In this document: in pieces, positions 17,874-37,504 of the stretch | How positions within the stretch are numbered: position 1 is the first letter of the stretch | How the letters are laid out: every line of letters starts with the position of its first letter | Assembly (NCBI RefSeq): GCF_026427355.1 | Contig: NZ_CP102665.1 | Coordinates: 310,001 to 374,000, forward strand | Source: Sphingobium sp. JS3065 | GTDB lineage: Bacteria > Pseudomonadota > Alphaproteobacteria > Sphingomonadales > Sphingomonadaceae | Reading direction: 5' to 3' | DNA: 64,000 nucleotides | The notes under the pieces: model-generated | Told to the model about the DNA's origin: nothing | Database searches by the model: none | The model's input: only the letters and a program-made list of their open reading frames with translations | Position numbers and translations under genes: made by a program

Positions 17874-18307
17874 CCTATCTTCTCGACGTCAATGTGCTCG
17901 TTGCTCTGATCGATCCCAATCATGTCGGCCATGATGCCGCGCATCACTGGTTCGAGTCCATCGGCGCCAGGGCCTGGGCGACGTGCCCCATCACCGAAAA
18001 TGGGGTCATCCGCATCGTGGGGAACGTCAAATATCCCTCGACCCCCGGTTCGCCAGCCGAGGTGGCGCGCATCATCGGGCAGATGCGGCAGTTGCCAGGG
18101 CACAGCTTCTGGGCTGACGATATCAGCCTGCTGTCCGACGAGCGGGTCGACGAGAGCCGGCTTCTCACCTCTGCGCAGGTTACCGACACCTATCTCCTCG
18201 CGCTTGCCGTGGCGCATGATGGCAAGCTTGCCACCTTCGACCGGCGGCTCTCGCCCAGGGCCGTCAGCGGCGGCAAGGCAGCCCTCCACCTCATCGGACA
18301 TCAATGA
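17870..18307 (+). CDS. PIN-domain toxin (VapC-like ribonuclease)
   Basis: 145 aa. The acidic PIN active-site pattern is visible: LLDVNVLVALIDPNH (first Asp near residue 5), CPITENGVIRI (Glu) and VTDTYLLALAVAHDGKLATFDRRL (Asp residues). VapC toxins cleave RNA, often initiator tRNA. The target here is unknown. The GTG start overlaps the antitoxin stop. The stop overlaps the start of the next gene (ATGA), so three genes may be co-expressed. Confidence 0.86.
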   Translation: MTYLLDVNVLVALIDPNHVGHDAAHHWFESIGARAWATCPITENGVIRIVGNVKYPSTPGSPAEVARIIGQMRQLPGHSFWADDISLLSDERVDESRLLTSAQVTDTYLLALAVAHDGKLATFDRRLSPRAVSGGKAALHLIGHQ

Positions 18308-19227
18308 TGCGCACGGACCTCGACCATCTTCCCGCGGCCAAGCAGCGCGAGCTTGAGGAGGTCGTTCGCATTCTGTTCGCGGAATTTCGCGAGGCGACCG
18401 AAAATGCGACGGGCCGACGGAAATCGGCGCGCATCCTCAAGATCATCCTGTTCGGTTCCTATGCGCGAGGCGACTGGGTCGATGCGCCGTTCGACGCCAA
18501 CCAGTATAAGTCCGACATGGATATACTGGTGGTCGTCAACCAGAAGGAAATGACCGACGTCGCCGCCTACTGGTCGGTGGCGGAGCAAAGGCTGATCGAC
18601 GCCTATCTCATCGAGAAGCGGATCAATACGCCGGTGCATTTCGTCGTCCATTCGCTCCAGCAGGTGAACCAGGGCCTTGCCCATGGCCGGGTCTTCTTCA
18701 TGGAGATCGCCGAACAGGGCATCGCACTCTATGATGCTGACGGCCGCGAACTCGCCAAGCCCAAGCCCAAGACGCCAAACCAGGCGCTGGAGGCCGCCCA
18801 GGAATATTTTGACGAATATTTCGGCGAAGCGATGCAGTGTTTCGAGGTCGCGAAATTCGGAATTGGAAAGTCGTTTGTAAAGAAGGCAGCGTTCGATCTT
18901 CACCAAACAACTGAACGATTATATCAAGCAATTCTGCTCACGTTGACGTTCTATACGCCGTACGATCACAATATCGCGTTCCTGCGGCTTCAGGCAGAAG
19001 GCCGCAATCAGGCGCTGTTCGACGTCTGGCCGCGCGGTACCCGAAAGGAACGGGCGATGTTCCAGAAGCTCAAGGACGCCTATGTGAAGGCGCGCTATTC
19101 AAAGCACTACCGGATCACCTCTGAGGAATTGAACTGGCTCGCCGAGCGGATCGAGATTTTGGGGCAGATGACGCATGAGATCTGCACCGCCCATATCGCG
19201 AATCTGTGCAGGAATGCTGCCCATTGA
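18304..19227 (+). CDS. Nucleotidyltransferase (MNT) fused to HEPN domain
   Basis: 307 aa. The N-terminal half is a minimal nucleotidyltransferase: IILFGSYARGDWVD with SDMDILVVV about 15 residues later gives the GS...DxD active site. The C-terminal half is a HEPN helical bundle (FVKKAAFDLHQTTERLYQA, then KARYSKHYRITSEELNW). Separate MNT and HEPN genes form toxin-antitoxin pairs in which the MNT part modifies the HEPN ribonuclease. Here both are in one chain. It overlaps VapC by 4 nt. GC content drops near 18850-18960. Confidence 0.8.
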   Translation: MMRTDLDHLPAAKQRELEEVVRILFAEFREATENATGRRKSARILKIILFGSYARGDWVDAPFDANQYKSDMDILVVVNQKEMTDVAAYWSVAEQRLIDAYLIEKRINTPVHFVVHSLQQVNQGLAHGRVFFMEIAEQGIALYDADGRELAKPKPKTPNQALEAAQEYFDEYFGEAMQCFEVAKFGIGKSFVKKAAFDLHQTTERLYQAILLTLTFYTPYDHNIAFLRLQAEGRNQALFDVWPRGTRKERAMFQKLKDAYVKARYSKHYRITSEELNWLAERIEILGQMTHEICTAHIANLCRNAAH

Positions 19228-19603: not shown

Positions 19604-20416
19604 TTGGAGACTGGAGACGTAATACCGCTTGCCAAGTGCTTTCCGGACGGAAAGCCATACACGCGCCGCAGGGACGTCGAGGAGGATCTGAGGAGGCTCG
19701 TCGTCTTGCCGCGCGAGGAAATCCTTGCCGCGCTCAGGATCCGCGACAGGTCGTCACCGCAACATCTGAAGTCCGAATGCATCGTCCATCTGATACGCGA
19801 GACGCGCACGGACAATGACGAGCGCTACTTCGGTGAACTCTACAAGGAGCTCATGCGCCGGATCGATACCGCCTTGCCGCGCGTCGCCGGAGAGCGGGTC
19901 GACGGGCAGGAGAATGTCCACGCCTCAGCAGCGCGGGACCAGATCGCCGGCAGGTTCCGGGAGAAGCTGTCCGAGGACCGAACCTCACCTGGAACCTGGC
20001 TGGACTACTACGAGGTGATGTTCGCCGACGCTATCGCAGCTTTGCGCACAACCCACATGGGGCGGGCGCGAAAGCAGGCCGCGCGCACCGAGACGATAGA
20101 ATCCAACGATGATACGAATGAGCCCTCGCTCGCGGTGGAACGCGCCGTTGGAAGCTTCGACATTAAGGAGGAACTGCTCTCCGACGATCCGATTTACCGG
20201 TCGCGCCTCGCTGCTGCGATAAGAAACCTACCAGACAAGCACCGCAGAGTCATCGAGCTGACCATAAGGGATATACCAATCGATTCGTCCGACGATAGCG
20301 TCATGACGATCCGGAAGCTGATCGGCGTCAAATCCGAGAAGACCGTCCGGAACAGGCGAAACGAGGCAATCCTGATGATACGCCAGGCTCTGTCGATTGG
20401 AGACGACAATGACTGA
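19604..20416 (+). CDS. Sigma-factor-like regulator
   Basis: About 270 aa. The C-terminal segment (RLAAAIRNLPDKHRRVIELTI, then SVMTIRKLIGVKSEKTVRNRRNEAILMIRQAL) has the arrangement of sigma-70 region 4, including a helix-turn-helix. The N-terminal part (RRDVEEDLRRLVVLPREEILAAL, YFGELYKELMRRIDTALPRV) is helical and could replace region 2. I infer it drives or regulates this locus. The start is TTG 19604 with AAGGGGG about 6 nt upstream, an unusual start that would keep expression low. The next gene overlaps it by 8 nt. Confidence 0.62.
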   Translation: METGDVIPLAKCFPDGKPYTRRRDVEEDLRRLVVLPREEILAALRIRDRSSPQHLKSECIVHLIRETRTDNDERYFGELYKELMRRIDTALPRVAGERVDGQENVHASAARDQIAGRFREKLSEDRTSPGTWLDYYEVMFADAIAALRTTHMGRARKQAARTETIESNDDTNEPSLAVERAVGSFDIKEELLSDDPIYRSRLAAAIRNLPDKHRRVIELTIRDIPIDSSDDSVMTIRKLIGVKSEKTVRNRRNEAILMIRQALSIGDDND

Positions 20417-20996
20417 CAGCCACGACGCCGACGAGGAGGTTCTCCTCGCATTTGCGGTCGAACCCGAAAAGGACAACGCGACCCTGGAGCGCTATCTCAA
20501 GGCGTATCCGCACCTGACCGACCAGCTGATCGATCTATCCCTGAACCTGCGGCTGCAGCACGCCACGGAGGAATTGACGGGGCCAGCCGACGAGGCGTGG
20601 GTCGAGGCTTCCCTTGCGGCCTTTCGAGCTGCTTCCGGACCTCAGGAAACACAGCCGGTCATCGATCCGTTCGCGGGAATCGCTTCTTCAGAGCTGGTGG
20701 CGCTCCGCCAGTCGCTCGGCGTGCCGAGCGGGGTCATACAGGGTTTCAGTTCCAGGCTCGTCGACGTCGTCAGCGTGCCCGCATCGTTCATCGACGCACT
20801 CTCGCAGGGTCTGCGCACCACTGCGGAGGAACTGCGCCGCTTCATGGCCGGGCCACCGCGTCTCGCGCACGGGGCCAGCCACAAGGCCGACAATGCGCCA
20901 ACCGCCGGACAGGAGAAGATCACATTCGAGGATCTCCTCAGGCAGTGCCGAGTGCCGGAAGAGCGGAGGCATCAACTGCTGGGCTCTCGGGATTGA
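20409..20996 (+). CDS. Partner protein of the sigma-like factor, unknown family
   Basis: 195 aa from ATG 20409, with TGGAGA 5 nt upstream. The N-terminal part is acidic and helical (DEEVLLAFAVEPEKDNATLERYL). The middle (SSELVALRQSLGVPSGVI, VSVPASFIDALSQGL) resembles a diverged HTH. The end is KITFEDLLRQCRVPEERRHQLL. It is sandwiched between the sigma-like gene (8-nt overlap) and the ImmA-type peptidase fusion (3-nt gap), where ImmR/DdrO-type repressors cleaved by ImmA/IrrE peptidases normally sit. An anti-sigma or cleavable-repressor role is inferred only. Confidence 0.5.
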   Translation: MTDSHDADEEVLLAFAVEPEKDNATLERYLKAYPHLTDQLIDLSLNLRLQHATEELTGPADEAWVEASLAAFRAASGPQETQPVIDPFAGIASSELVALRQSLGVPSGVIQGFSSRLVDVVSVPASFIDALSQGLRTTAEELRRFMAGPPRLAHGASHKADNAPTAGQEKITFEDLLRQCRVPEERRHQLLGSRD

Positions 20997-20999
20997 CCG

Positions 21000-23900
21000 A
21001 TGAGCGCTGTCGAACTCACGCGGCAGCGTGCCGCTGCGCTGCATGATAAGATAATCTCGGAGGGAACCGACCCCTGGGATCCCGTGGCCATAGTCATTGC
21101 GGCCGCGTCCAACCTGGGGCTCGACATCGAACCTGTCGAGCCGGGCAGTGCAGTCCTCGAAGGTGGACGAGCACAGTTCGACCCGGTCAACAGGGCTATC
21201 CGGCACGAGGAGGCAGGATCGACCTTTTACAGGGCCTTCCTCGTGGGCCACGAACTCGGTCACGCCACGCTCGGTGATGACCGCGTCGAGCACATCGCGC
21301 ACGACGTCGATCCTACACGGGCAGCGGAAGCCGCCCCCGTCGGCGAGGATCGCGTCATCGATTACAGCCGACGTCAGCGGCGCGAGATCCAGATGGACCT
21401 CTTCGGTCGCGAACTCCTGCTTCCACGCGGATGGGTGCGGTCACTCCATCTTGAAGGCATGACGGCCACACAGATAGCGGAACGGATCGGCGCACCATTC
21501 GACGTCGTCGCGCTTCAGCTTCTCGACGCCCTGCTGCTGCCTCAGATCGAACCGGAACCAGAGGAAGGCGAGGTCAAGCCGCCAAAGCCATTGAACGAAG
21601 AGCAGAGCAAGGCTGCGATTCACCGCGGCCCACCCTATCTTCTGGAGGCCGGTCCGGGGACGGGCAAGACCCAGACGCTCGTTGGGCGCGTAGCCGACCT
21701 CGTCGACGAAGGCGTCGACCCGCGCAAGATCCTCGTCCTGACCTTCTCGAACAAGGCCGCCGGGGAACTGACCGAGCGTATCGCCGGTCTCCGTCCAGAG
21801 GCGGCGTCGGCGATGTGGATCGGCACGTTCCACGCGTTCGGCCTCGACCTGGTCCGCCGATATCACAGTCGGCTGGGGTTCCCGAAGGAACCCCGCATGA
21901 TGGATCGCAGCGAGGCGATTGCCATCATGGAGCGCGAATATCTTGCGCTCGATCTCAAGCACTATCGCGAATTCATGAATCCCGACCGTCCGCTCAAGGA
22001 CATGTTCACGGCGATCTCGCGCGCCAAGGACGAGGTGGCCGACGCCGACCGCTACGCCGCCCTTGCCAAGGACATGCTGGAGAAGGCGACCGATTCGGCT
22101 GCGCGAGAGGCGGCGGAGCGCTGCGCGGAAGTGGCGCTCGTCTACCGGAAATACGAGGAGCTGAAGCGCGGGGCATGCGCGGTAGACTTCGGCGATCTGG
22201 TATCCCTGCCCGTGAAGCTTCTGGACTCCGCGGCCGACGTCGTCTCCATGCTGCGCGGGACATACAGCCACGTCCTCGTCGACGAGTATCAGGACGTGAA
22301 CCGCAGCAGCGTGCGGCTTCTCCAGCGTCTGACGGATGGTGGAGATAACCTCTGGGCCGTCGGCGATGCACGGCAGGCCATCTACCGATTCCGTGGCGCA
22401 TCCTCTTTCAACATGTCGCGCTTTAGGTCCAACGACTTCTCCGGTGGCACTGGCAGTCGGCTCCGGCTCAACTATCGGTCGACACCCGAGATCGTCGGGG
22501 CCTTCTCCCGCTTCGGCGCCACCATGCAGGCTGGGACCAGCGACGCATCGCTCGATGCCTATCGACCGTCCAGCGGGATAGCGCCCGAGCATGTGACCTT
22601 CGGCGACAATGACGACGAGGCTGCGGCGCTCGCCGACGAGATTCTGCGCTGCTCGGAGGACGTGGCCTTCCGAGAGCAGGCCGTGCTCTGCTCCGGAAAC
22701 GACCGGCTCAACCGCATGGGACGCGAGCTGGAACGTCGCGGAATCCCGGTTCTCTATCTGGGAAATCTCTTCGAGCGGCCCGAGGTAAAGGACTTGCTGT
22801 CCATCCTGTCACTGCTCGTCGACCGGCGTGCAATGGGCCTCGTCCGCAAACCCTCGCTGCCGGATCTGGCGACGGGCATCACCCTGACTGGCGCCGCGGC
22901 GGTCGTCGACCATCTTCGGCTGACCGAAGCCGACCCACTCGCATGGGCGGGCGCCTCCCCGTCGCTACAGGTTCTCGATGCGGCCGACATGGCGGCGGTG
23001 AGCAAAGCATCGGCCATGGTGACCGGCTTCGATAGTCAATCGAATCCCTGGACAGTGCTTGCGCACGTCCTCCTGGACCGCACGCGGACTGCGGCATCGC
23101 TGGCTTCGACGGCCGATGTTGCCAGCCGATCGATGGGCGTCGCCATCTGGCAGCTCATGGGTTTCCTGCGTGCCGAGCGTCCAGCGCCGGAACCGGGACT
23201 TCCAGTTCAACGCACCCTCGATGGCATAAGGCGTCTGATCCAGCTCGCCGACGAGAGGGACCTTCGCCAGCTGCCTCAGGCTGCGCAGGGTATCGACGCC
23301 GTCCGGCTCATGACCATCCACGGCAGCAAGGGGCTAGAATTCCCCGTCGTGCATGTGATGGGCCTGAACAAGAACAGCATGCCGAACACCTGGCGAAAGC
23401 CTGCCTGCCCTGTGCCGGATGGCATGATCGAGGGCGGCAAGGGTGGCACGATGGAGATCAGTGCCGCCGATCATGCGCTTGAGCAGGAGTGCCTCTTCTA
23501 TGTTGCCACCTCCCGCGCCCGGGACAGGCTCCTCCTCTACTCGGCAAGGCACACCACCACAAACGCAAGACGCGACCCTTCGCCATTCATTGGTCGACTG
23601 GGTGTCAGCGTCGCCAGGGCGGCAATGGCAACCGCAACCTCAAGCCCCGACCCGGAGGATCTACCGCTGCCGATCACGATGGGGTCAGCCATCAAGATCA
23701 CGATCGCACAGCTGAGCCTCTATGATCGGTGCCCGCGGCGCTTCCTCTACACCCACGTTCTCGGGGTCGGCGGACGCCGCACGCCTACGACCATGACGAG
23801 GATGCACGATCTGGTGCGCGCGGTCGTGACGGAGATCGCCTCCACGCAGCCCTCCTCGACCTCGCTCGACGAAATGGAGAGACTGCTGGATGAGCGCTGG

Positions 23901-24410
23901 TCCGAAGGATCATTGGCCGGTGACGAGTATCGGCTGCACCGCGATGTGGCAGCGACGCTTCTTCGGCGATTCGTGAGGATGAGGGCGGGCACGACCCGCA
24001 CGGGAGCCGCGGGCCTGAGGGCGGGCATTGGAACTAACACGATCACGGCGGATGCGGACGATGTCGTGACCACCGCCAGCGGGGCACATTGCGTCCGCAT
24101 GGTGAGAACGGGGCATAGTTCGTCGACGACCGGGAAGAGCCTCGCCGATGCCGCCTTCCAGATGGCGGCCTCCGCATCGCTCCCGGGGTGTGCAGCCGAG
24201 ATCATTCACCTTGGGGATGACGATCCATCGACGTCGGTTTCGTTCAGTCCGAAGCTGCTTGGTACGAAGGAGGAGAAGCTGACCGAGTTGTTCAAGTCCA
24301 TTGGTGGCGGCCATTTCGCACCTGAGCGATCGGGTCGAACCTGCCCCTTCTGCCCGGCCTTCTTCACCTGTGGTCCAGTGGCAGAGGGCAACCTCCAAAA
24401 AAATCTCTGA
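21000..24410 (+). CDS. ImmA/IrrE metallopeptidase fused to UvrD-type helicase with C-terminal Fe-S nuclease-like domain
   Basis: 1136 aa. Residues 1-170 are an ImmA/IrrE zinc peptidase with LVGHELGHATLGDD (HExxH at 84-88) and a second conserved helix (RREIQMDLFGRELLLPR). Residues about 205-860 are a superfamily-1A helicase: LEAGPGTGKTQT, LTFSNKAAGEL, LVDEYQDVNRSS, GDARQAIYRFRGA, LRLNYRST, MTIHGSKGLEFPVVHV and YVATSRARDRLLLY. The C-terminus has an AddB/Cas4-like cysteine set, DRCPRRF near 910 and CPFCPAFFTC near 1115. Together this suggests a cleavage-competent sensor attached to a DNA motor. The nuclease residues look degenerate. It lies 87 nt upstream of the ubiquitin-like operon. Confidence 0.87.
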   Translation: MSAVELTRQRAAALHDKIISEGTDPWDPVAIVIAAASNLGLDIEPVEPGSAVLEGGRAQFDPVNRAIRHEEAGSTFYRAFLVGHELGHATLGDDRVEHIAHDVDPTRAAEAAPVGEDRVIDYSRRQRREIQMDLFGRELLLPRGWVRSLHLEGMTATQIAERIGAPFDVVALQLLDALLLPQIEPEPEEGEVKPPKPLNEEQSKAAIHRGPPYLLEAGPGTGKTQTLVGRVADLVDEGVDPRKILVLTFSNKAAGELTERIAGLRPEAASAMWIGTFHAFGLDLVRRYHSRLGFPKEPRMMDRSEAIAIMEREYLALDLKHYREFMNPDRPLKDMFTAISRAKDEVADADRYAALAKDMLEKATDSAAREAAERCAEVALVYRKYEELKRGACAVDFGDLVSLPVKLLDSAADVVSMLRGTYSHVLVDEYQDVNRSSVRLLQRLTDGGDNLWAVGDARQAIYRFRGASSFNMSRFRSNDFSGGTGSRLRLNYRSTPEIVGAFSRFGATMQAGTSDASLDAYRPSSGIAPEHVTFGDNDDEAAALADEILRCSEDVAFREQAVLCSGNDRLNRMGRELERRGIPVLYLGNLFERPEVKDLLSILSLLVDRRAMGLVRKPSLPDLATGITLTGAAAVVDHLRLTEADPLAWAGASPSLQVLDAADMAAVSKASAMVTGFDSQSNPWTVLAHVLLDRTRTAASLASTADVASRSMGVAIWQLMGFLRAERPAPEPGLPVQRTLDGIRRLIQLADERDLRQLPQAAQGIDAVRLMTIHGSKGLEFPVVHVMGLNKNSMPNTWRKPACPVPDGMIEGGKGGTMEISAADHALEQECLFYVATSRARDRLLLYSARHTTTNARRDPSPFIGRLGVSVARAAMATATSSPDPEDLPLPITMGSAIKITIAQLSLYDRCPRRFLYTHVLGVGGRRTPTTMTRMHDLVRAVVTEIASTQPSSTSLDEMERLLDERWSEGSLAGDEYRLHRDVAATLLRRFVRMRAGTTRTGAAGLRAGIGTNTITADADDVVTTASGAHCVRMVRTGHSSSTTGKSLADAAFQMAASASLPGCAAEIIHLGDDDPSTSVSFSPKLLGTKEEKLTELFKSIGGGHFAPERSGRTCPFCPAFFTCGPVAEGNLQKNL

Positions 24411-24497
24411 GCGAAATTACCGGTCGGATCCCGCTGCCGAGATTGACCCTGTGAGACCGCCGCAATCACGCCTCGGTCCGCAGGAACACACGACACA

Positions 24498-25241
24498 ATG
24501 TCCATTCTCGAAAACCACGACATCGATGATGTAGAACTCGCCGTGCAGCAGGATCGCCCGCTGCGTCCCGGTCGCTATCGCGTCCATCTGGCTGTTGACA
24601 GCATTGGCTTCACCCCCCTGGTTCTTGACGATCCGGTGCCGCTCGGCCGTCAGATCCTCAAGAAAGCGGGTATTATCGACCTCGATGGCCACTCGCTCTT
24701 CCTCATCAGGCCCGAGGGCGACTTCGAGGATGTTCGCGCCGACGAGGAGGTCGATCTGCGTGACCGCGGTGCCTACCGCTTCATCGCATTCAGCACCGAT
24801 CCCCTCTACCGCGTCAAGCTGAACGAGGCACGCATCGTCTGGGGCCGCTCGTCCATCCCCGAGGCGGTGCTGCGTGCGCTCGCCGGCATCGGCGACGACG
24901 AGGCGGTCTTCCTGGAGGTGCGCGGCGGCAAGGACAAGCTGATCAAACCCGGCACCGAAGCGGACCTCTCGGCCGGTGGCGTCGAGAAGTTCATCACGGC
25001 ACCCAACAAGGTCACCTACACCTTCTTCGTCAACGGCAAGCCCTATGAGACCGAGAAGAAGAAGCTGACCGGTGCGCAGATCAAGGAGATGGTGCCCGAC
25101 TGGGATCCGCAGCACGATCTGTCGCTGGAGGGTGAAGGCGACGAGCCCGACCGCACCATCGCCGACGACGAGGCGGTGAGCCTCGACCCGAAGCACGGCG
25201 TCCGCCGCTTCTCGTCGGTGCCGAAGGCGAACTTCGGCTGA
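24498..25241 (+). CDS. Triple beta-grasp ubiquitin-like modifier (multiubiquitin family)
   Basis: 247 aa made of three ubiquitin-like units: about 24-97 (YRVHLAVDSIGFTPLVL...), about 102-166 (YRVKLNEARIVWGRSS...) and about 170-247 (YTFFVNGKPYETEKKKLTG...). Each begins with a strand pair and has a helix with hydrophobic spacing. The protein ends in PKANFG, with glycine at the very C-terminus, so it could be activated by the E1 without trimming. Neighbours are E2, E1-JAMM and DUF6527 with 1-4 nt overlaps, so this is the modifier (BubA-like position). The target is unknown. Confidence 0.87.
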   Translation: MSILENHDIDDVELAVQQDRPLRPGRYRVHLAVDSIGFTPLVLDDPVPLGRQILKKAGIIDLDGHSLFLIRPEGDFEDVRADEEVDLRDRGAYRFIAFSTDPLYRVKLNEARIVWGRSSIPEAVLRALAGIGDDEAVFLEVRGGKDKLIKPGTEADLSAGGVEKFITAPNKVTYTFFVNGKPYETEKKKLTGAQIKEMVPDWDPQHDLSLEGEGDEPDRTIADDEAVSLDPKHGVRRFSSVPKANFG

Positions 25242-25624
25242 TGTCCGGCATCCTCGATATGCAGCTGGAGCAGCTGCGGGAGCGCTTCGGCGACGTTCAG
25301 ACCCGGCGCTTGCCGAGCGGCACCACACTCGTCATCGTGCCGGGTGTCCGTCTGCCGGAGGGGTGGTCGAAGGTTTCGGCTACCATCCGCTTCATTGTCC
25401 CGCCGGGGTATCCGTTCGCGCAGCTCGACTGCTTCTGGGCGGATCCCGACCTGCGGCTCGCCCATGGTGGAGTGCCGCAGAACTCTGCGACGAGCCCCAT
25501 TCCCGAGACGGTCGAGCCGGCCCTGTGGTTCTCGTGGCATCTGACTGGCCCTTGGAACGCCAACCGCGACACGCTCTCGACATGGATGAACGTCGTGATC
25601 GAACGCATGAGGCAGATCCGATGA
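25241..25624 (+). CDS. E2-like ubiquitin-conjugating protein (prokaryotic E2 family E)
   Basis: 127 aa with a reduced E2 fold: VSATIRFIVPPGYPFAQLDCFW corresponds to the strand and YPxxxP region of UBC proteins, then PALWFSWHLTGPWN and the terminal helix (TLSTWMNVVIERMRQI). The only cysteine is Cys64, directly after the YP segment, and nothing cysteine-like occupies the usual catalytic position. From memory, related Bub pathways work through oxyester (Ser/Thr) intermediates, which would fit. The start overlaps the modifier stop by 1 nt (TGATG). Confidence 0.82.
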   Translation: MSGILDMQLEQLRERFGDVQTRRLPSGTTLVIVPGVRLPEGWSKVSATIRFIVPPGYPFAQLDCFWADPDLRLAHGGVPQNSATSPIPETVEPALWFSWHLTGPWNANRDTLSTWMNVVIERMRQIR

Positions 25625-26967
25625 GCCGCGTCCGCTTTCCCGCGCCCCTCTATTCCCATCTGGCGTCGAGGCTGCTCGATGCCAACGGTCTGGAGAGCTG
25701 CGCCATCGCTTATGCCCATCACGATGGGCATAGCGACACCTGGATCGTCGCCGACGCCAGTCCAGTGCCAGAGGACGCCTATGAGCGCCGCGACCGCCTG
25801 TCCGCGGTGCTCAAGCCTTCCTTCCTGGTCGAGGTCGCCAACCGTAGCCGCGTCACAGGAATGGCGGTAATTGCCATCCACACCCACCCGGCCAGCCCCG
25901 GTTATACTTGCTTCTCATCGACCGACAATGCAGGCGAGACGGAACTCAGCACATACTTCGCCCGCCGCGCGGCCAAGGTTCCGCATGTCGCGCTGGTCAT
26001 CGGACCTGAGGGATGCCGCGCCCGCCTACTCGGACAAGAAGAGGAGGTCGAGGTCTGGGAGGTCGGACAGTCCCTCACGCTCCATTCCCCTCTCGCAGAC
26101 CTCGCGAACCATGAACGGGATGATCGGCAGGTCCGCGCCTTTGGCGCGCCTGGACAGCGTCTGGTGCGCCGTCTCCGGTTCGCCGTCATCGGTGCCGGTG
26201 GCACCGGATCGATCGAATGCCAGCAGCTGGCCCATCTCGGCGCGGCATTGATCACCGTGATTGACCCCGACCTCGTGGAGGAGACGAACCTCAACCGGCT
26301 GGTCGGCTCCGTCCCGTCGGACGTGGGACGCCCCAAGGTCGAGATCGCTGCCAGGATGATCCGTGCCATCAATCCCGATGCCATGGTGATTCCGCTTCAG
26401 GCGGACATCGTCGACGAGGATTTGGCGAAGCTGATAGCCACCTTCGACTTCGTCCTGCTCTGCACGGACTCGCACGCGAGCCGAGCGGTGGTGAACCAGG
26501 CAGCCTATCAGTATCTGGTTCCCGTGATCGACATGGGCGTCAGCATCACCGTGGCCGACGGCGCCGTCACCCATATCACCGGCAGGGTTCAGATGCTGGC
26601 CCCCGAGCTTCCGTGCCTCACATGCTCGAATGCGCTCGACAGCGAGGCGATCCGGCGGGAAATGCTGACGCCGGAACAGCGGGCGGCGGATCCCTATGTC
26701 CAGGGCGTGCGCGAGCCGCAGCCGGCCGTTCTCTCCATCAACTCGACCGTGAGCTCGCTGGCGATGACCATGATGCTCGGCGCTGTGACGCCCGTTCCCG
26801 TAAAGCCGCGTTATCAGATCTATGATGGCATTCGCGGGCGGGTGAAGCAAATGGTGGTGGCGGTGCAGCCACACTGTGTTGTCTGTTCATCCATGGGAGC
26901 CTTCGCCAAGGGCCCGACTTGGGATCTGCCGGTCCGGCCTACCAGCCATGAGGGGAAAGATAAATGA
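25621..26967 (+). CDS. JAMM peptidase fused to ThiF/E1-type activating enzyme
   Basis: 448 aa from ATG 25621, which overlaps the E2 stop (ATGA). Earlier in-frame codons lie inside the E2 gene in another phase and are rejected. Residues 1-150 are a Prok-JAB deubiquitinase-like domain with HTHPASPGYTCFSSTD (His87, His89, Asp102 as zinc ligands). Residues 183-440 are the adenylating E1: VIGAGGTGSIECQQL, DPDLVEETNLNR, VLLCTDSHASR. Two cysteine pairs, CLTC and CVVC, form the usual structural zinc site. It activates the modifier and can remove it again. Confidence 0.9.
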   Translation: MSRVRFPAPLYSHLASRLLDANGLESCAIAYAHHDGHSDTWIVADASPVPEDAYERRDRLSAVLKPSFLVEVANRSRVTGMAVIAIHTHPASPGYTCFSSTDNAGETELSTYFARRAAKVPHVALVIGPEGCRARLLGQEEEVEVWEVGQSLTLHSPLADLANHERDDRQVRAFGAPGQRLVRRLRFAVIGAGGTGSIECQQLAHLGAALITVIDPDLVEETNLNRLVGSVPSDVGRPKVEIAARMIRAINPDAMVIPLQADIVDEDLAKLIATFDFVLLCTDSHASRAVVNQAAYQYLVPVIDMGVSITVADGAVTHITGRVQMLAPELPCLTCSNALDSEAIRREMLTPEQRAADPYVQGVREPQPAVLSINSTVSSLAMTMMLGAVTPVPVKPRYQIYDGIRGRVKQMVVAVQPHCVVCSSMGAFAKGPTWDLPVRPTSHEGKDK

Positions 26968-27506
26968 CGGAACCTGCACGCATGGTCCGAATGCTTGCCC
27001 CGGCGGAATACCGGGATCAGGCCGAAGCTGCCCTATCCGCTCCGGGGGATGCCGCCATGGTCGTCCGCGCCCGACCAAGGTCGGTCATCATGGCATGCCC
27101 GGATGGATGCGGCGAGACCCTGGTGATCAATCTGGACAGCCGCGCCGATAAAGCTTGGCGCTTCGACATGCGCGGAGAAGGACTCACGCTCTTTCCCTCG
27201 GTCTGGCGCGAAGGCGGTTGCGAAAGCCATTTTATCCTATGGCGCGGTCACATCCTGTGGTGCGACCGTTTCGAGCGAGGAAATCGCGAGCCGACCTACA
27301 ACCCCGAGATCGAAGCTGCCGTTCTCGGTGCTATGGACGAGGTTCAGCCGCGCAGCGCGGTTGAGCTTGCGGATGCGATCGACGAACTCGTCTGGGACGT
27401 CAACCGCGTGGCAGGTAGGCTCGTCGGACGCGGACTCGCACGATCTTTTAGGATCGACGGTGGATGGATGTTTGCTCGGATCGCGCTTCCCGACCGGGAC
27501 ACATGA
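26964..27506 (+). CDS. DUF6527 protein of the ubiquitin-like operon (BubE-like)
   Basis: 180 aa. The core has CPDGCGETLVINL, then LFPSVWREGGCESHFILWRGHILWC, the cysteine, serine and histidine pattern of DUF6527. From memory, the serine proteases in Bub operons use a Ser-His dyad; CESHF here is one candidate, not proven. A C-terminal winged-helix-like part follows (AIDELVWDVNRVAGRLVGRGLARSF). The start overlaps the E1-JAMM stop by 4 nt. It would process or remove the modifier. Confidence 0.78.
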   Translation: MTEPARMVRMLAPAEYRDQAEAALSAPGDAAMVVRARPRSVIMACPDGCGETLVINLDSRADKAWRFDMRGEGLTLFPSVWREGGCESHFILWRGHILWCDRFERGNREPTYNPEIEAAVLGAMDEVQPRSAVELADAIDELVWDVNRVAGRLVGRGLARSFRIDGGWMFARIALPDRDT

Positions 27507-27751
27507 CACCCCCCTCGAGCGCGAGTCGCTTCAGATAGCGCATGACAAAGAGGTCCTGCGCCATCACTGCTCCGCGGATTCCATAATCGATCACCTGTCC
27601 GAACTCTTTTGGAATATCGACTTGGGGTTGCAGCTCTTCAGCACCGAGAGACACGACGATGATTGAATGAGGCAGGGCACTTTCTCAGATGGAAAATCGG
27701 GCGGTTGCGCTGATGCCTCGCTACACTTATCGTCACATCGTTGGGGGGATC
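27507..27751. other. Gap with probable promoter and a possible gene remnant
   Basis: The plus strand is non-coding. On the minus strand, about 27500-27660 reads as protein-like sequence (EELQPQVDIPKEFGQVIDYG, then GAVMAQDLFVMRYLKRLALEGG) without a good start or ribosome site, possibly a gene fragment. The next 90 nt are AT-richer and may hold the promoter of the motor block. Confidence 0.35.
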
Positions 27752-28264
27752 ATGAGTAAAGCTTGTAGACTTGTTCGCGCCGCCATTTTGCTTGCGGTAT
27801 TCGCGGTTTCGTGTCCTGCCTGGGCGTCATATGTGACTACAGAGGGTGTTAACTGCCGGTCGCGTCCAGATGTTGGAGCGCGCGTGGTAGCTAAACTTTT
27901 TAAGGGGCAGTCTGTCTCGATATCAGAGGCTGGCGACGGTTGGTCGAAACTGGATCGGCCCTACTGTTGGGTCAGTTCGCGCTTCCTCGCATCCGAGTAT
28001 GTTGGTGCGATTCGATCCTACCCGCAAACAGCTCGCGGGACGGGTTCGGCCAGATCGCCGGGCTTCTCCGCGCCTAGATCCTACTCATTCAGCTCAGCGG
28101 CCAAGAAGTCGCGGAAGAAATCCTCAGCAAAGCAGCTAAGCGGCCGGGGCGGAAGCTACGGCGGCTCGTCCGGCTGCCCCTGCAGCGGTGGAACCGTCTG
28201 CATAGGTCCGCGCGGCGGGCGCTACTGCATCACAAGTGGTGGCAACAAGCGGTATGGAGTGTAG
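27752..28264 (+). CDS. Secreted SH3-domain protein with Cys-rich C-terminus
   Basis: 170 aa from ATG 27752. A signal peptide (CRLVRAAILLAVFAVSCPAWA) is followed by a bacterial SH3 domain (VNCRSRPDVGARVVAKLFKG ... CWVSSRFL), a basic Ser-rich linker and a C-terminal CPCSGG...CIGPRGGRYCITSGG module found at the end of many secreted alphaproteobacterial proteins. SH3b domains often bind peptidoglycan. GC is lower than in the neighbouring genes. It starts the block that contains the motor proteins, 10 nt before the next gene. Confidence 0.72.
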   Translation: MSKACRLVRAAILLAVFAVSCPAWASYVTTEGVNCRSRPDVGARVVAKLFKGQSVSISEAGDGWSKLDRPYCWVSSRFLASEYVGAIRSYPQTARGTGSARSPGFSAPRSYSFSSAAKKSRKKSSAKQLSGRGGSYGGSSGCPCSGGTVCIGPRGGRYCITSGGNKRYGV

Positions 28265-28273
28265 ATACCGCTC

Positions 28274-29674
28274 ATGGGGGCATGGTATAAATTAGCGCAG
28301 TTCTTCGACCGGAGCGAGCCGATGCGCGCTCCGATGGACGATCCGTTCATCCAGATCGACCGGGCAGAGGTGTCTGCGGCGCTCAAGCTCAAGGAGCGCG
28401 GTGCGGAGCAGGGGGCGTTGGAACTCCCACCGTCGTCGTCGGAAACCCTAGATGCCGTCGAAGCGGAGGTCGCCACCTTTATACAGGAGCATTTCGGCCG
28501 GGCGCAGATCGATGCCGCCAACAGCGTCCGTACTTACGATTCGCGGCTGAACGGGCTCTCGCTCATCGCGAATCTCGGATCCATCCGGACGCAAGCCAAG
28601 CTCGCCGTCGGCGACTTCAAGGCCGAGGTTCTCGTCAGGCGCGGCCGGCTGACGAACAGCCGCGACGCCATCAGAGACAGCTATTCGGAACTGCGCGACT
28701 TCCGGAAGGAGAACGGTCTCAAGCGCCCGGCCCACGATGCTGCCGCGCCGATCAGTACCTATGGCACCATGGCGGTCTGCTGGTTGATCGAGACGATCGC
28801 CAACTCCATGCTCCTGCGCCTCAACGATAGCATGGGCTATCTGGGCGGCGTTCTCGCCGCGGCGATAGTCGGCGCCATCAATGTTTTCGTCGCCGGCGTG
28901 GCGGGGCGGCTGCTCTGGCCGCGTAAGAATCTCCAGGATCCGACCGCACGGAACCTTGCGTGGGTTGGAATAGGCCTGTGGATACTCTTCACGCTCGCAT
29001 GGAACCTGACGGCCGCCCACTATCGTGATGCCAAATCCCTCGGCATTCCTCATCCGGAGACCGCCGCGCTCGGCATGCTGGGGGGTGGTCTGGACAGCCT
29101 CTATTCCTACGGCCTCGTCGTCGCCGGCCTCGTCTTCGCCGTCACGGCCGCCATGGCGGGCTACAGGATGGACGACCCCTATCCAGGATATGGTGCCGTC
29201 TCGACCAGGCATGCGAAGCGCTGCGACGACTATGTGGCGGAATTCGAAGACGCAAGGCACGAGCTGACAGACATCCGGGACGACGCCATCGACCAGGCGA
29301 CCGACGTGCGCGAGGAACTGGCGCGACAGCACGCCGAGCGGCAGCAGATACTTACCGCAAGGGAGGCCTTCCGTCGCCGCTATGACGAATACGGGATACA
29401 GCTCGAAGCGGTCGCCAATGCGCTGCTGCAGGAATATCGGAACGCGAACCGCGCCGCTCGATCCACGCCCGCGCCGGATCACTTCGAATCCACCTGGCGC
29501 CTATCCCGGACAGCGCTCCCGCTGCCCTCTGGCGAGGAGATCCCGCGTTCAGCGATCGATGCCGCCGAGGCGAATCTTGAGGCCGCGGTCGACGACATAT
29601 CGACCGCATTCGACGAGGCGATCGCCAGCTTCGAGCCCTTGGACGAACTGAAGAAGCGCATCGCGGATGACTAG
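28274..29674 (+). CDS. Membrane protein with long coiled-coil flanks, unknown
   Basis: 466 aa. About four membrane segments lie between residues 155 and 300 (TMAVCWLIETIANSMLL, LGGVLAAAIVGAINVFVAGV, LAWVGIGLWILFTLAWNL, GLVVAGLVFAVTAAMAGY). The N-terminal arm (60-150) and C-terminal arm (315-466) are helical and charged, probably coiled coils. No family recognised. It overlaps the vWA-like gene by 8 nt and is in the same operon as the MotA- and MotB-like genes, so it may be a scaffold or regulator of that envelope complex. Confidence 0.65.
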   Translation: MGAWYKLAQFFDRSEPMRAPMDDPFIQIDRAEVSAALKLKERGAEQGALELPPSSSETLDAVEAEVATFIQEHFGRAQIDAANSVRTYDSRLNGLSLIANLGSIRTQAKLAVGDFKAEVLVRRGRLTNSRDAIRDSYSELRDFRKENGLKRPAHDAAAPISTYGTMAVCWLIETIANSMLLRLNDSMGYLGGVLAAAIVGAINVFVAGVAGRLLWPRKNLQDPTARNLAWVGIGLWILFTLAWNLTAAHYRDAKSLGIPHPETAALGMLGGGLDSLYSYGLVVAGLVFAVTAAMAGYRMDDPYPGYGAVSTRHAKRCDDYVAEFEDARHELTDIRDDAIDQATDVREELARQHAERQQILTAREAFRRRYDEYGIQLEAVANALLQEYRNANRAARSTPAPDHFESTWRLSRTALPLPSGEEIPRSAIDAAEANLEAAVDDISTAFDEAIASFEPLDELKKRIADD

Positions 29675-30518
29675 ATCACCGAGGAACCGTCGTCCCAGAC
29701 GGGCGCCCACGAAGTCGGCTGCCGTCGCCCGGAGGGACGCGGATAGCAGGAGCGCTCTGTTCAAGATCATGCTGGTGGCGAGCGTGGTGATAGCGTTCGG
29801 CTCGGTCTATTTCGTCGTGGCATCCTCCAAGCAGGACTTGGACGAGGAGACCCGCTGCCCGAGCAAGGTGACGAGCGTGACGGTGCTCCTCGTCGATGTC
29901 ACCGACCCCATGAACACGCCCCAACGGCAGGACTTCTCAAACCAGCTGACAAAGCTGAAGAACTCGATCCCGCGCTACGGGCAGTTGATGGTGGCGAAGG
30001 TGGATGCGACCAAGGACAGTCTGCTCACGCCGGTGATCACCCGTTGCAATCCCGGCACCGCCAACGACGTGAGCGCCGCGACCGGCGACCCAGACGCTAC
30101 CCAGAAGGACTGGGAGGAGAACTTCGACAAGCCGCTGACACAGGCGTTCGAGAGGATCGCGACCGCCAGCAACGCCAACCAATCCCCCATCCTCGAGTCC
30201 ATCCAGTCGGTCGCGCTGACGCAATTACAGAAGCCCGGCCAGGAAGGACTTCCAAAGCGTCTCGTCGTCGCCTCCGACCTTCTCCAGAACACCGGTGACG
30301 TCAGCTTCTATCGGGGATTGCCGGACGCGCGGGAATTCACCGATGGGGCAACATTCCGTCGGCTTCGCACAGATCTTCGCGGTGTCGATGTCGAGCTGTG
30401 GATGCTCGAACGCAGCGACGCCGCCTCGACGCAACCGCGGTCTCTTGCCGACCTATGGGACAACATCATCGGCGCCGAGGGTGGGACAGTGCGCCGCATC
30501 TACAACGTGAGCGGGTGA
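29667..30518 (+). CDS. Membrane-anchored vWA-like periplasmic protein
   Basis: 283 aa. A basic N-terminus is followed by one membrane segment (FKIMLVASVVIAFGSVYFVV, about 32-51). The rest has a von Willebrand A-like pattern: VTVLLVDVTDPMNTPQRQDF supplies the first metal-binding strand, and KRLVVASDLLQNTGDVSFY a second conserved one. The MIDAS serines are only partly conserved. vWA proteins next to ion-driven motors may sense or clamp partners; that role is inferred. It starts within the preceding gene and ends 1 nt before the MotA-like gene. Confidence 0.65.
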   Translation: MTRSPRNRRPRRAPTKSAAVARRDADSRSALFKIMLVASVVIAFGSVYFVVASSKQDLDEETRCPSKVTSVTVLLVDVTDPMNTPQRQDFSNQLTKLKNSIPRYGQLMVAKVDATKDSLLTPVITRCNPGTANDVSAATGDPDATQKDWEENFDKPLTQAFERIATASNANQSPILESIQSVALTQLQKPGQEGLPKRLVVASDLLQNTGDVSFYRGLPDAREFTDGATFRRLRTDLRGVDVELWMLERSDAASTQPRSLADLWDNIIGAEGGTVRRIYNVSG

Positions 30519-31802
30519 ATGAGCGAGATCGAGACCCACCAGCGGGACCTACTGGAGGAGCGCGGCTGGATCGACCGCTGGGGCTTCCTGCTCTTCGCCT
30601 TCGGCGGCGCGGCAGCCATCCTCATCGTGAAGTATCTGGGCATCTCCCCAATCATCGTCGCGGCCGGTGCTGCCATCGCGATGCTCGGATACGCCTATGT
30701 CGTCCAGACCACCGGCACCGGACGGCTCCGCGCCGATCAGGCCGGCGACAACTGCTACTATCTCGGGCTGATCTACACCCTGACCAGCCTGGCATACGCC
30801 ATCTTCTTCTTCGACCCGGCGAACACGGCAACCACCATCGTCCAAGGTTTCGGCATCGCGCTGGCCACCACGATCATGGGCCTGGTGCTTCGCGTGTTCT
30901 TTAACCAGAGCAGAGTCGATCTGGTCGAGACTGAGGACACGGCCCGCGTCGAGCTCGCCGACGCCGCCGGTCGCCTCAAGGCCGAACTGCAGGCCATGAC
31001 CGTCAGCATGAACGACTATGGCCGGGAGACGCGGCAGGCATTGGTGGAGCTGCGCGAGCACATAGTGGCTTCGCTTGTCGATGTGCAGGAACAGGCGACC
31101 AAGTCGATAGCCGATGCATCCGCTGTGGCTGGCACCGCCATCAGCACGATGGCGACCAACGCCACCAACACGACGGCGGAGCAGGCCAACGCGACACTGG
31201 CCAGCGCCCGCCGCCTGACGGCTGCGACGGAAAAGGTCATCACTGGCATCGAGGAGCATGTCGATGCCATGGAGGACATACAGGATTCGACCAGTGCGAT
31301 CGCCGAAAGCCTGAAGTCGCTGGAGGCCGCAGCGGAGAAGACCCAGCAGAATCTCGCCGAATTGGCTGGCCGGGCCGAGCAGCTTGCGGAGACGCAGGGG
31401 GCACTCGGCGAGACCGGGAGGAAGCTGCAGGAGGTCGTCGAAGAGGTGGCTAAGCACATTGTCGGCTTCGACGCCTCCACGACACGTTTCGAGGAATCGC
31501 TTTCGGCGCGTCTGGCGGAGGTCAAGACCGTCCCCGCAGACATGGCGACCAAGACCTCCGATGCCTTCATGCGTGCTACGTCCGCCATGGAGGAGCAGTT
31601 TCAGCTGATCTCGAAGGCCCACCAGACCTTTGCCGAAGACCTATCCCGCAAGGCGGAGGCGGGCGTGGAAAGGCTAGAGCGGCACAATGCCGCGCTCGAG
31701 CGTGAGCTGGATCGCTCGCGGGACAATGTCGCCAAGGTGCATGGCGCGCTCGTCGAAATGACGGGCACCCTCGTAAATCGCGTGCAGGCTACCAACCCGT
31801 GA
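30519..31802 (+). CDS. MotA/ZorA-like membrane channel with long coiled-coil tail
   Basis: 427 aa. Four membrane segments lie in the first 130 residues (GFLLFAFGGAAAILIVKYLG, PIIVAAGAAIAMLGYAYVV, LGLIYTLTSLAYAIFFF, GFGIALATTIMGLVLRVFF). An Ala/Glu/Gln-rich coiled coil of about 290 residues follows, with no breaks. This layout is that of ZorA, the MotA relative whose tail extends into the cytoplasm. The downstream gene overlaps by 4 nt and encodes the matching MotB/ZorB-type partner, so I call a proton- or sodium-driven motor pair. Sequence similarity to MotA itself is weak. Confidence 0.66.
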   Translation: MSEIETHQRDLLEERGWIDRWGFLLFAFGGAAAILIVKYLGISPIIVAAGAAIAMLGYAYVVQTTGTGRLRADQAGDNCYYLGLIYTLTSLAYAIFFFDPANTATTIVQGFGIALATTIMGLVLRVFFNQSRVDLVETEDTARVELADAAGRLKAELQAMTVSMNDYGRETRQALVELREHIVASLVDVQEQATKSIADASAVAGTAISTMATNATNTTAEQANATLASARRLTAATEKVITGIEEHVDAMEDIQDSTSAIAESLKSLEAAAEKTQQNLAELAGRAEQLAETQGALGETGRKLQEVVEEVAKHIVGFDASTTRFEESLSARLAEVKTVPADMATKTSDAFMRATSAMEEQFQLISKAHQTFAEDLSRKAEAGVERLERHNAALERELDRSRDNVAKVHGALVEMTGTLVNRVQATNP

Positions 31803-32713
31803 GCGACCAACAGCTGGACCTGCGCCAGGACAAATCCTACCGACGCGGTCTCGTCCTCGGCCTCACCATGGCCGAGATCATGATACTGCTCCTGTTCGTG
31901 CTGCTCATGGCGCTGGCCGCAGCGCTCCAGAATCGCGATGCTCGCATCAAGGTACTCGACAGCGGTGGGGCGTCCCAGCTCGTCGAGGAACTGCAGCGCG
32001 CGTATCCCGACGCCAAGGATTCCAATGATTACTTCAAGGAACTGAAGCGGGCCATCGAGGCCAGGAAGCGCGTCGAGGCGGGCGCAGTCGACAGCAAGCA
32101 CCTGCTGGAGGACGCGGAGGTCGGACGTCAGGTCAGGGAGGCCGCCGCCGCCAGCGGCGTCAAAGACCCCGAGCGCTTCGTGAAGGAGGTGGTCGCCGCC
32201 TCGTCCAAGGGGAGAAAGGGACAGTGGCCGCCCTTCTTCAGCCTGAGCGAGGCCGGTGGCTACTTCTTCGACAGCGGCAAGGCGACGCTTCGACCTGAGT
32301 TCGAGAGGAACCTCAAGGCCGAGGTCGTCCCTATGCTTGCCCGGAGCGTGGCAGACTACGACGTCGATGTCGTCGAGGTCATCGGGCATACCGATGAGGT
32401 CCCGATGTCGGGGTCGAGCAACCTCGATGCCGCACTGATCCCGGCATCGGTCGGGCGGACTCCCATCGGCGCGCTGCGCTCCACGGACAACGCCGGTCTT
32501 GCCATGGCTCGGGCGGTCGCCGTGGTTCACCTACTTCGTGCCGACTCTCGACTGCGGAACGTGGCGATCCTTCCCCTGTCCGGCGCGCAGATGATCGTGC
32601 CGGTCGATAAGGTTGCGAACGGGACTGCAAGGGGTGATGACCAGCGCCGCCGTCGCATCGAAATCCGCCTTCGGAAGTCGACGCAGCAGGCGTCGCCGAC
32701 CATTCGGAAGTGA
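31799..32713 (+). CDS. MotB/ZorB-like stator with OmpA domain
   Basis: 304 aa. A short cytoplasmic N-terminus leads into one membrane helix, GLTMAEIMILLLFVLLMALA (about 21-40), which carries a glutamate near its inner end where MotB, ExbD and ZorB carry the ion-binding aspartate. A linker (40-145) precedes an OmpA-type peptidoglycan-binding domain: YFFDSGKATLRPEF, VIGHTDEVPMSG and GDDQRRRRIEIRL. It would anchor the motor to the cell wall. Start overlaps the MotA-like gene (GTGA). Confidence 0.76.
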   Translation: MSDQQLDLRQDKSYRRGLVLGLTMAEIMILLLFVLLMALAAALQNRDARIKVLDSGGASQLVEELQRAYPDAKDSNDYFKELKRAIEARKRVEAGAVDSKHLLEDAEVGRQVREAAAASGVKDPERFVKEVVAASSKGRKGQWPPFFSLSEAGGYFFDSGKATLRPEFERNLKAEVVPMLARSVADYDVDVVEVIGHTDEVPMSGSSNLDAALIPASVGRTPIGALRSTDNAGLAMARAVAVVHLLRADSRLRNVAILPLSGAQMIVPVDKVANGTARGDDQRRRRIEIRLRKSTQQASPTIRK

Positions 32714-32715
32714 CC

Positions 32716-32928
32716 ATGGATCAACTTGATGCTAACCTTCTGGAACTTCGCCAGCTGATCAAGCGCAGTGATGAGAGACAAAATTCGGTCATGCACGGGG
32801 ATCAACAGGTGCTACCTCCGCCATCCTTGGAAACGGCGCCAGCTTCCCTGTCCGTAGAGAGGCGGATCAGGCCATACGAACCAGTACCTCGCACGTGGTT
32901 TGCACGAATGTTCGGCGGCAGGAGCTGA
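32716..32928 (+). CDS. Small hypothetical protein in the motor operon
   Basis: 70 aa, MDQLDANLLELRQLIKRSD at the start and PRTWFARMFGGRS at the end, with a proline-rich middle. No family recognised; the basic aromatic C-terminus could be membrane-associating. It lies 2 nt after the OmpA-domain gene and its stop overlaps the thermonuclease start (TGATG). Confidence 0.5.
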   Translation: MDQLDANLLELRQLIKRSDERQNSVMHGDQQVLPPPSLETAPASLSVERRIRPYEPVPRTWFARMFGGRS

Positions 32929-33566
32929 TGAGGCGCCCGACACGCAGATCCCGGCGGCGCATTCATAGTTGGCGAAGTGCAGATCGACGAGGGCGTATAG
33001 GTCCCGCGGAAAGACTGGCGCTGGTGTGCGTGTCGCTGATTTTCATCGGAGTGTTCGTCTTCACCTACATGGCGACTGAAGCTGGTCGAGTCCGTTTTGA
33101 GTCGTCGGCCAATGCGTCGACAAAGGCGGCGGCGGTGATGAATCGCGTCGACGCGTCCGATATGTCTGCTGCATTGACTATGGCGAGAAGCAAGATTGGC
33201 GGCGGTTCTCTATCGAATGCCAATGCCAAATTCTCCATTTGCCATACAGGCGGTGGCATCAACTGTGTCGTGGATGGCGATACGGCTTGGATCGTTGGTG
33301 AAAAAGTGCGGGTCGCGGATATCGACGCGCCGGAAACGCACCCGCCCCGGTGTTCATTAGAAGCAAATTTGGGCGAGAAAGCCACCAAGCGACTGGCGGA
33401 ATTGATGAACGACGGCCCGTTCGATCAGATCGTAGTTGACAGGGATCGTGATCGATATGGCAGAAAGCTCCGGGTCCTCACACGCAACGGCAAATCCTTG
33501 GGTCAGCAGCTAGTGGCAGAAGGGCTCGCGAGATCATGGGAAGGTCGGCGGCGTCCGTGGTGTTGA
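32928..33566 (+). CDS. Membrane-anchored thermonuclease (SNase family)
   Basis: 212 aa from ATG 32928. One membrane segment (LALVCVSLIFIGVFVFTYMA, about 32-51) anchors a staphylococcal-nuclease domain: CVVDGDTAWIVGEKVRVADI with DAPETHPP, then GEKATKRLAEL and DRDRYGRKLRVL. The catalytic Arg, Asp and Glu positions look intact, so it should cleave nucleic acid outside the inner membrane. Lower GC than the motor genes. As the last gene of the block it could degrade DNA entering through the envelope. Convergent with the SbcC-like gene. Confidence 0.82.
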   Translation: MRRPTRRSRRRIHSWRSADRRGRIGPAERLALVCVSLIFIGVFVFTYMATEAGRVRFESSANASTKAAAVMNRVDASDMSAALTMARSKIGGGSLSNANAKFSICHTGGGINCVVDGDTAWIVGEKVRVADIDAPETHPPRCSLEANLGEKATKRLAELMNDGPFDQIVVDRDRDRYGRKLRVLTRNGKSLGQQLVAEGLARSWEGRRRPWC

Positions 33567-37502: not shown

Positions 37503-37504
37503 GC

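Follow-up and report, generated by a model that had tools for sequence, protein, structure and literature searches.

A polyubiquitin-like operon beside a Zorya-like motor gene set with a predicted periplasmic nuclease in Sphingobium sp. JS3065

This article deals with a dense block of genes in Sphingobium sp. JS3065, whose genome of 5.1 Mb is assembled in 5 contigs. The window, that is, the whole stretch of 64,000 nucleotides that was analysed, corresponds to positions 310001-374000 of contig C2 (NZ_CP102665.1), and it starts with conjugation genes encoding a TrwC relaxase and a coupling protein. At positions 19604-33566 it carries thirteen genes, here called g01 to g13, all on the plus strand. 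An initial annotation had read them as a single defence system made up of a sensing, a tagging and an envelope arm. They are real genes, but the block consists of two gene sets side by side: unit I, g01-g07 (19604-27506), an operon built around a polyubiquitin-like (polyUbl) protein, and unit II, g08-g13 (27752-33566), a motor-type gene set that ends with a nuclease.

Gene content of the block

All thirteen genes were confirmed, and a further conserved frame of 72 amino acids, g12b, was found at the end of the block (Table 1). The packing is as tight as had been described, since most neighbouring genes overlap or almost abut, and the largest gap is indeed one of 245 nt when g08 is taken from its signal-peptide start. 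A simple pattern scan found neither a sigma-70-type nor a terminator-like site inside this gap.

Table 1. Features of the block, in window coordinates (TM, transmembrane segment).
Feature	Position	Strand	Assignment	Evidence
g01	19604..20416	+	Sigma-like regulator, first gene of the polyUbl operon	Relatives' matches and annotations
g02	20397..20996	+	Small conserved protein of the polyUbl operon	Flanked by g01 and g03 in 11/11 relatives with g03
g03	21000..24410	+	ImmA/IrrE peptidase + UvrD helicase + C-terminal PD-(D/E)XK-like domain	Pfam
g04	24498..25241	+	Polyubiquitin-like protein, three repeats	Multi_ubiq 6e-38, 3 stretches
g05	25241..25624	+	E2-like protein, probably without catalytic Cys	Prok-E2_E 1e-11
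g06	25621..26967	+	JAB (JAMM) + E1/ThiF fusion	ThiF 9e-44; Prok-JAB 4e-4, below cut-off
g07	26964..27506	+	DUF6527	DUF6527 7e-18
Boundary between the two units	27507..27751	+	Separates g07 from g08	245 nt, largest gap
g08	27752..28264	+	Secreted SH3 + Cys-rich protein, motor-cassette accessory	SH3_3 1e-6
g09	28274..29674	+	Membrane + coiled-coil protein, about four TM by eye	DPYPGYG-type conserved motif (alignment of 13)
g10	29667..30518	+	TM-anchored vWA-fold protein, predicted periplasmic	AlphaFold2, Foldseek
g11	30519..31802	+	MotA/TolQ/ZorA-like subunit with long helical tail	
g12	31799..32713	+	MotB/ZorB-like subunit, one TM with invariant Glu26, OmpA-type domain	
g12b	32710..32928	+	Small conserved frame	MDQLDxNL...WFARxFGG; related frames in five relatives compared and in L013
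g13	32895..33566	+	TM-anchored staphylococcal-nuclease domain, predicted periplasmic	SNase 1.4e-9

The assignment of g01 as a sigma-like regulator, made in the initial annotation, draws on the Sigma70_r4 match of a single relative (locus L024, E 0.0028, below the cut-off) and on the public annotation of relatives as sigma-70 or DNA-binding response regulator; the window copy has no Pfam match over the cut-off. The g02 relative of L023 shows an Xre-like helix-turn-helix, likewise below the cut-off (E 0.0034). The ImmA/IrrE-UvrD fusion of g03 is confirmed by Pfam (M78 2e-8, UvrD 1e-62), with an additional PD-(D/E)XK match (PDDEXK_1 3e-7). By eye, HExxH and Walker A are conserved in 11/11 aligned rows, window included, while the usual catalytic Lys of the nuclease domain is not visible in the alignment despite the Pfam listing. 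Farther down, g04 ends with ...FSSVPKANFG, and the JAMM motif HTH...S..D is present in g06 and its relatives (five rows aligned). The E2-like g05 has one conserved Cys, at a position read as non-catalytic (alignment of five). The conjugation set had been called complete, a description that this E2 leaves unconfirmed; Iyer 2006 calls the E2 inactive (PMC1779556).

In unit II, several genes were recognized from their structure or their relatives. SH3 genes like g08 adjoin the motor in L013 and L088 too, a motif shared with g08 lies upstream of the motor in L011, and Excalibur proteins recur as motor accessories (L011 and L026). For g09 no family passes the Pfam cut-off, and profile searches of solved structures gave no credible match for g09, g10 or g12. 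The vWA protein announced by the initial annotation is g10, whose fold is backed by its predicted structure: the AlphaFold2 model has a pLDDT of 85 and Foldseek returned 81 PDB matches at E<=0.001, the best 50 of which are mostly of vWA/integrin-I type, while no Pfam model detects vWA there. The charge pattern is consistent with its predicted placement, K/R being richer before the TM than after it in 14/15 rows. The anchored nuclease, g13, combines a TM with an SNase domain; it has 12 K/R before the TM and 4 after, and its catalytic motifs, with residues that we take to be the catalytic ones of SNase, are kept in the alignment.

The MotA/MotB-like (ZorAB-type) motor stands on firmer ground for one subunit than for the other. 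The MotB/ZorB-like nature of g12 is supported by a ZorB1 match (2.5e-7), and the Glu of its TM is invariant in 17/17 aligned rows and in 8/8 further proteins; by eye, Glu26 appears to occupy the position of the MotB/ZorB Asp. For g11, the AlphaFold2 model is confident in the membrane part and less so in the long helical tail. No Foldseek match reaches E<=0.001, and the best structure matches (Foldseek, VIA) include ZorA, TolQ, ExbB and PomA, designed helical proteins ranking above ZorA in VIA. One relative has a MotA_ExbB match below the cut-off. In the profile search of solved structures, the best 60 of 492 matches are nearly all coiled-coil noise, with the ZorA-type chain 8vvn matching the tail. 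A MotA/ZorA-like fold is suggested for g11, not proved. The OmpA-type region of the MotB-like subunit seems to be replaced by another C-terminal region in L123, L124 and L125, and in L123 and L125 no Pfam family passes the cut-off.

Separate distribution of the two units

The motor genes travel together. A scan of genome contigs with g11 gave 12 relatives. In loci with g11/g12 the order g09-g10-g11-g12 is kept as far as the contig extends over it, except in L017, which is without g09 and g10 (in L084, the evidence for g12 is an annotated OmpA gene). Among plasmids, the same 24/24 records are matched by g09 and by g11. The g09 profile was found in 1/298 genomes of the family, the present one, in 14/385 of the class and in 12/398 of the phylum; these samples share some genomes, and the weaker matches in G373, G385, G482, G957 and G1033 are partial.

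Do these genes bring the polyUbl operon with them? Multi_ubiq, the family of g04, was not found in 17/17 further genomes with g09 (14 with g11, 3 with g09 and g10 only), nor in 13/13 motor plasmid records searched, of 24. The same search does match the window genome, and one record is common to the plasmid and 17-genome sets. The motor is therefore a separate unit, and the composite, in which both units would form one system, was rejected; separation of the two sets in homologous loci is the outcome that the initial annotation had itself named as refuting it. That composite is very improbable and largely refuted, even though the two units lie nearly contiguous on the same strand in the window and close to each other in L011 as well. 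In that second locus, where the same polyUbl operon as unit I lies 4 kb from the motor, it is on the opposite strand and the order of the units differs; 10/11 relatives of the g03-type operon are without motor genes within the fetched stretches; and in the window the largest gap falls precisely at the unit boundary. What weighs against independence is an enrichment: Multi_ubiq is present in 5/12 of the motor genomes found earlier (4 over the cut-off), compared with 29/297 family genomes, the window's own excluded (Fisher P 0.005), or 4/12 compared with 28/297 when only matches over the cut-off are counted (Fisher P 0.026). A polyUbl operon of a different kind is found in L069 (genome G303), some 9.5 kb from the motor. 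We read this co-occurrence as the sharing of islands rather than as one system, and the best explanation of the block is that units I and II are two independent mobile units placed head to tail. Of the three arms first proposed, sensing and tagging do share a conserved operon, while the envelope arm, the motor, stands apart.

Two departures from the usual layout were observed. In L128, L129, L136 and L137, relatives of g09 and g10 occur without detectable g11 or g12, possibly a variant with another motor partner. In L017 (about 9315-11056), g11 is shortened and, by eye, phage-like genes adjoin the site where g09 and g10 are missing; a prophage may have inserted there.

The polyUbl operon and its relatives

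The order and strand of g01-g04 are the same in 11/11 relatives carrying g03 (L021-L024, G300, G168, G026, G007 with broken frames, G005, G021 and G148), which were chosen as polyUbl or g03 had already been seen there. Two polyUbl loci, L069 and L081 (G308), are without g01-g03. On plasmids, homologues of the UvrD-ImmA gene g03 and of the polyUbl gene lie 81-141 nt apart in 33/33 records common to the best 40 polyUbl and the best 60 g03 rows (from 150 and 85 records; 7/40 polyUbl rows lie outside the g03 set). The sigma/ImmA-UvrD and ubiquitin-like genes are one conserved operon. Multi_ubiq occurs in 30/298 family genomes, and g03 is clearly beside it in 7/30 short loci of these genomes, window included, so the form with g03 is one of several polyUbl operons.

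Within these operons, the end of the polyUbl protein goes with the type of E1. Genes for E2 and JAB-E1 are found in the window, L011, L073, L075/76 and L021 (in pieces in the last), and in these 5/5 JAB-E1 operons the polyUbl protein ends with Gly (...FSSVPKANFG). The ThiF protein of L022, L023, L024, L078 and L079 showed no JAMM motif, that of L023 carrying DUF6791, and in these 5/5 operons the end is ...T(V/I)QS, with Ser. This count leaves out L080, for want of an in-frame reading of its polyUbl end, and L077, which has broken reading frames. A C terminus that matches the E1 type, together with a fixed ImmA-UvrD switch, suggests which operons conjugate.

The polyUbl/E2/JAB-E1/metal-binding part of unit I corresponds to operon type 6e, largely known since 2006 (PMC1779556). 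Row 6e of Iyer 2006 comprises polyUbl, an inactive E2/RWD-like protein, a JAB-E1 fusion and a metal-binding protein Y, with another domain in place of JAB in some versions (PMC1779556). Three of these components are present here, namely tandem ubiquitin-like repeats (Multi_ubiq), an E2/RWD-like protein (Prok-E2_E) and JAB fused to E1; the position of protein Y is occupied by DUF6527, which is probably the same protein. Forms with and without JAB were both found among the loci compared. No mention of DUF6527 was found in the open-access literature (bioRxiv and most subscription papers lie outside this scope). The difference lies upstream, as the sigma-like, g02 and ImmA-UvrD genes go unmentioned in the main text of PMC1779556, from which the words "uvrd" and "sigma" are absent. 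Bub operons likewise couple a ubiquitination-like operon to an upstream regulatory module, but the regulators described for them are CapW, CapH+CapP and CapK+CapS, in place of the sigma-like and ImmA-UvrD proteins found here (PMC13373217).

In unit I, g01, g02 and g03 may constitute a built-in switch ahead of the polyUbl genes; that this switch is drawn from analogy counts against it. CapP is an ImmA-type peptidase, and by analogy with CapH+CapP, g03 would sense DNA damage or phage DNA and relieve repression.

The motor, its nuclease and their possible role

Unit II usually comes with a nuclease. Among 41 loci with g11/g12, 2 truncated ones (L126 and L116) were set aside, leaving 39 informative loci, and 31 of them have a nuclease close by, next to the motor or fused to it: 26 have a separate SNase, 3 a MotB-SNase fusion, 1 a MotB-GmrSD_C fusion and 1 an S1/P1 gene. 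This 31/39 overstates independence, as the close copies L027/L089/L090, L083/L122 and L132/L133 are counted separately; L121 (the record of L083) and L131 (a near copy of L130) are not counted twice, and the four loci with g09 and g10 only are left out. The place of the separate SNase varies (downstream, upstream or opposite strand), and it is non-adjacent in L014 (4.8 kb), L018 (1.5 kb) and L130 (1.2 kb). A model built from 13 SNases of motor loci gave no match in 21 control loci totalling 391 kb (6 arbitrary, 15 around polyUbl operons). The motor-nuclease linkage is well supported, and the MotB-nuclease fusions make it directly testable.

The fusions also bear on topology. In L120, L127 and L134 the architecture is MotB-OmpA-SNase and in L135 it is MotB-OmpA-GmrSD_C (OmpA over the cut-off in L134 and L135), so that the nuclease, following a peptidoglycan-binding domain, should lie outside the inner membrane, in the periplasm. 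Of the separate SNases, 8/13 rows are clearly positive-inside around the TM, window included. Three of the four fused proteins, those of L127, L134 and L135, match ZorB2 strongly (1.4e-27, 3.9e-27 and 1.7e-33), which ties the family to Zorya; the fourth, L120, matches only ZorB1 (8e-5), and the window copy is not among the ZorB2 matches.

With Zorya, unit II has in common a MotB-like protein with a peptidoglycan-binding domain and an associated nuclease, next to a putative MotA-like protein with a long tail; the ZorB combination of a single TM and an OmpA-type peptidoglycan-binding domain is present in g12. The Zorya nuclease is proposed to act inside the cell, whereas that of unit II is predicted to be periplasmic and is sometimes fused to the MotB-like subunit. 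Unit II also adds g09 and the vWA protein g10, and it has an invariant TM Glu where, judged by eye, ZorB has its essential Asp. This residue, Asp24, is crucial for Zorya defence (PMC11890865). No ZorC, ZorD, ZorE, ZorF or ZorG was among the PADLOC matches listed at E<=0.01 for the 13 block genes (for g03, the best 25 of 55), with none for g09 and g10, ZorF and ZorG being DUF3348 and DUF2894 (PMC8565338). With the Asp replaced by Glu and no ZorC/D, ZorE or ZorF/G partner among the listed matches, membership of Zorya was rejected. SNIPE offers another parallel, a membrane-bound nuclease that cuts incoming DNA and whose location spares the chromosome, but it is a single DUF4041 protein with a cytoplasm-facing GIY-YIG domain (PMC13190303), and the Pfam matches in the block include neither DUF4041 nor GIY-YIG. 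Motors pairing TolQ with TPH-vWA also place a vWA protein beside a TolQ/MotA-type gene; the proposal for those motors is that the vWA protein stands in for the TolR/ExbD-type partner (PMC12204202), whereas unit II has a separate MotB-like g12. Unit II would work like Zorya and SNIPE and is classed as a member of neither. No earlier description of the motor-vWA-nuclease cassette was found in the same open-access literature; unit II seems undescribed and looks like a new form of Zorya-like motor with a predicted periplasmic nuclease.

How might such a cassette operate? We consider it reasonably likely that, independently of unit I, unit II is a Zorya-like motor that gates a periplasmic nuclease against incoming DNA. 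In this model, g11 would form a stator around the g12 helix, and the OmpA-type domain of g12 should grip peptidoglycan. On the periplasmic side would be the vWA protein g10 and the nuclease g13, with g09 and the g11 tail acting on the inner side. A breach of the envelope by an injecting phage or by incoming DNA would engage the motor, which would release the nuclease or drive it onto the DNA, and confinement in the periplasm would spare the chromosome. More tentatively, and with somewhat less than even expectation, unit II could represent a family of peptidoglycan-anchored motors driven by the proton motive force (PMF) that carry or gate interchangeable periplasmic nucleases (SNase, HNH-type GmrSD_C, S1/P1), destroy the DNA of phages or plasmids as it passes through and tell self from non-self by compartment alone. 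If true, a motor with an outer-side nuclease would make the periplasm a zone in which DNA is destroyed, and the periplasmic placement would explain how a sequence-blind nuclease is tolerated.

Several observations pull the other way. The fold score of g11 is within the range that helical bundles reach by chance, and the OmpA match is below the cut-off in g12 (3e-4), L120 and L127. No nuclease is nearby in 8/39 loci (L020, L028, L083, L084, L087, L122, L123 and L125), and no positive-inside TM anchor is clearly visible in the SNases of L016, L025, L026, L027 and L014. Metabolic genes surround several copies of the motor in rhizobia and Paracoccus. Defence-like neighbours are not enriched by raw count, at about 6/105 proteins (a figure inferred from the kinds of the best 25 of 56 families) compared with up to 5/74 in 6 arbitrary regions, where the matches are to broad families (mad3, PycC and SoFic).

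The copies amid metabolic genes, the nucleases predicted to be secreted or anchored, and the lack of g10 matches among 50,697 phage records (viral contigs gave 3) would all suit a competing explanation, a PMF-driven envelope or DNA-handling machine that degrades or takes up periplasmic or extracellular DNA, or excludes conjugative DNA, phages not being its target. We hold this to be rather unlikely: the cassette is rare (1/298 family and 14/385 class genomes), it is carried by 24 plasmid records and some copies adjoin transposases or recombinases, its MotB-like part is related to ZorB, and some copies lie beside defence genes. S1/P1 nucleases are a typically secreted family, and one of them directly follows g12 in L019. 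This gene, the four fusions that place a nuclease after the OmpA-type domain, and the TM with N-terminal positive charge in 8/13 SNase rows speak against a Zorya-like unit whose nuclease is cytoplasmic, as proposed for ZorE or ZorCD. In spite of a ZorA-like tail, a ZorB-like domain, an SNase without evident N-terminal TM in L014 and weak TMs in L025 and L027, such an arrangement is improbable. That the motor acts on its own, next to a nuclease unrelated to it, can hardly be true, for all that 8/39 loci do without one, given a linkage that recurs at changing positions, four fusions and three nuclease families.

For the preferred reading, a gated periplasmic nuclease, the evidence for a role in defence is suggestive only. 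Some motor copies are found beside Type I restriction-modification, Argonaute-associated, DUF4041 (SNIPE-type), Cas10 or AbiEii genes. A Sinorhizobium fredii plasmid (L085:3324-13028) carries the motor together with an SNase, a gene of SNIPE type (DUF4041 + T5orf172) and one with a CHAT domain. In L014 (4613-7398), an Argonaute-associated gene of restriction endonuclease (REase) type is close to the motor cassette, and a Class I Argonaute match there probably comes from the gene next to the REase-type one.

Other genes were noticed around the block in the window. Just upstream, at 17870-19227, a PIN-domain gene is followed by a nucleotidyltransferase-HEPN gene. On the minus strand, at 33757-43513, lies a cassette of SMC-like, calcineurin-like and DUF4011/MTES_1575 (PDC-S37) genes; relatives of parts of this SMC-like/DUF4011 cassette adjoin the polyUbl operon in L021 and L080 and the motor in L130. 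Farther downstream, at 52255-53745, is a gene for a Tle1-like phospholipase effector of the type VI secretion system.

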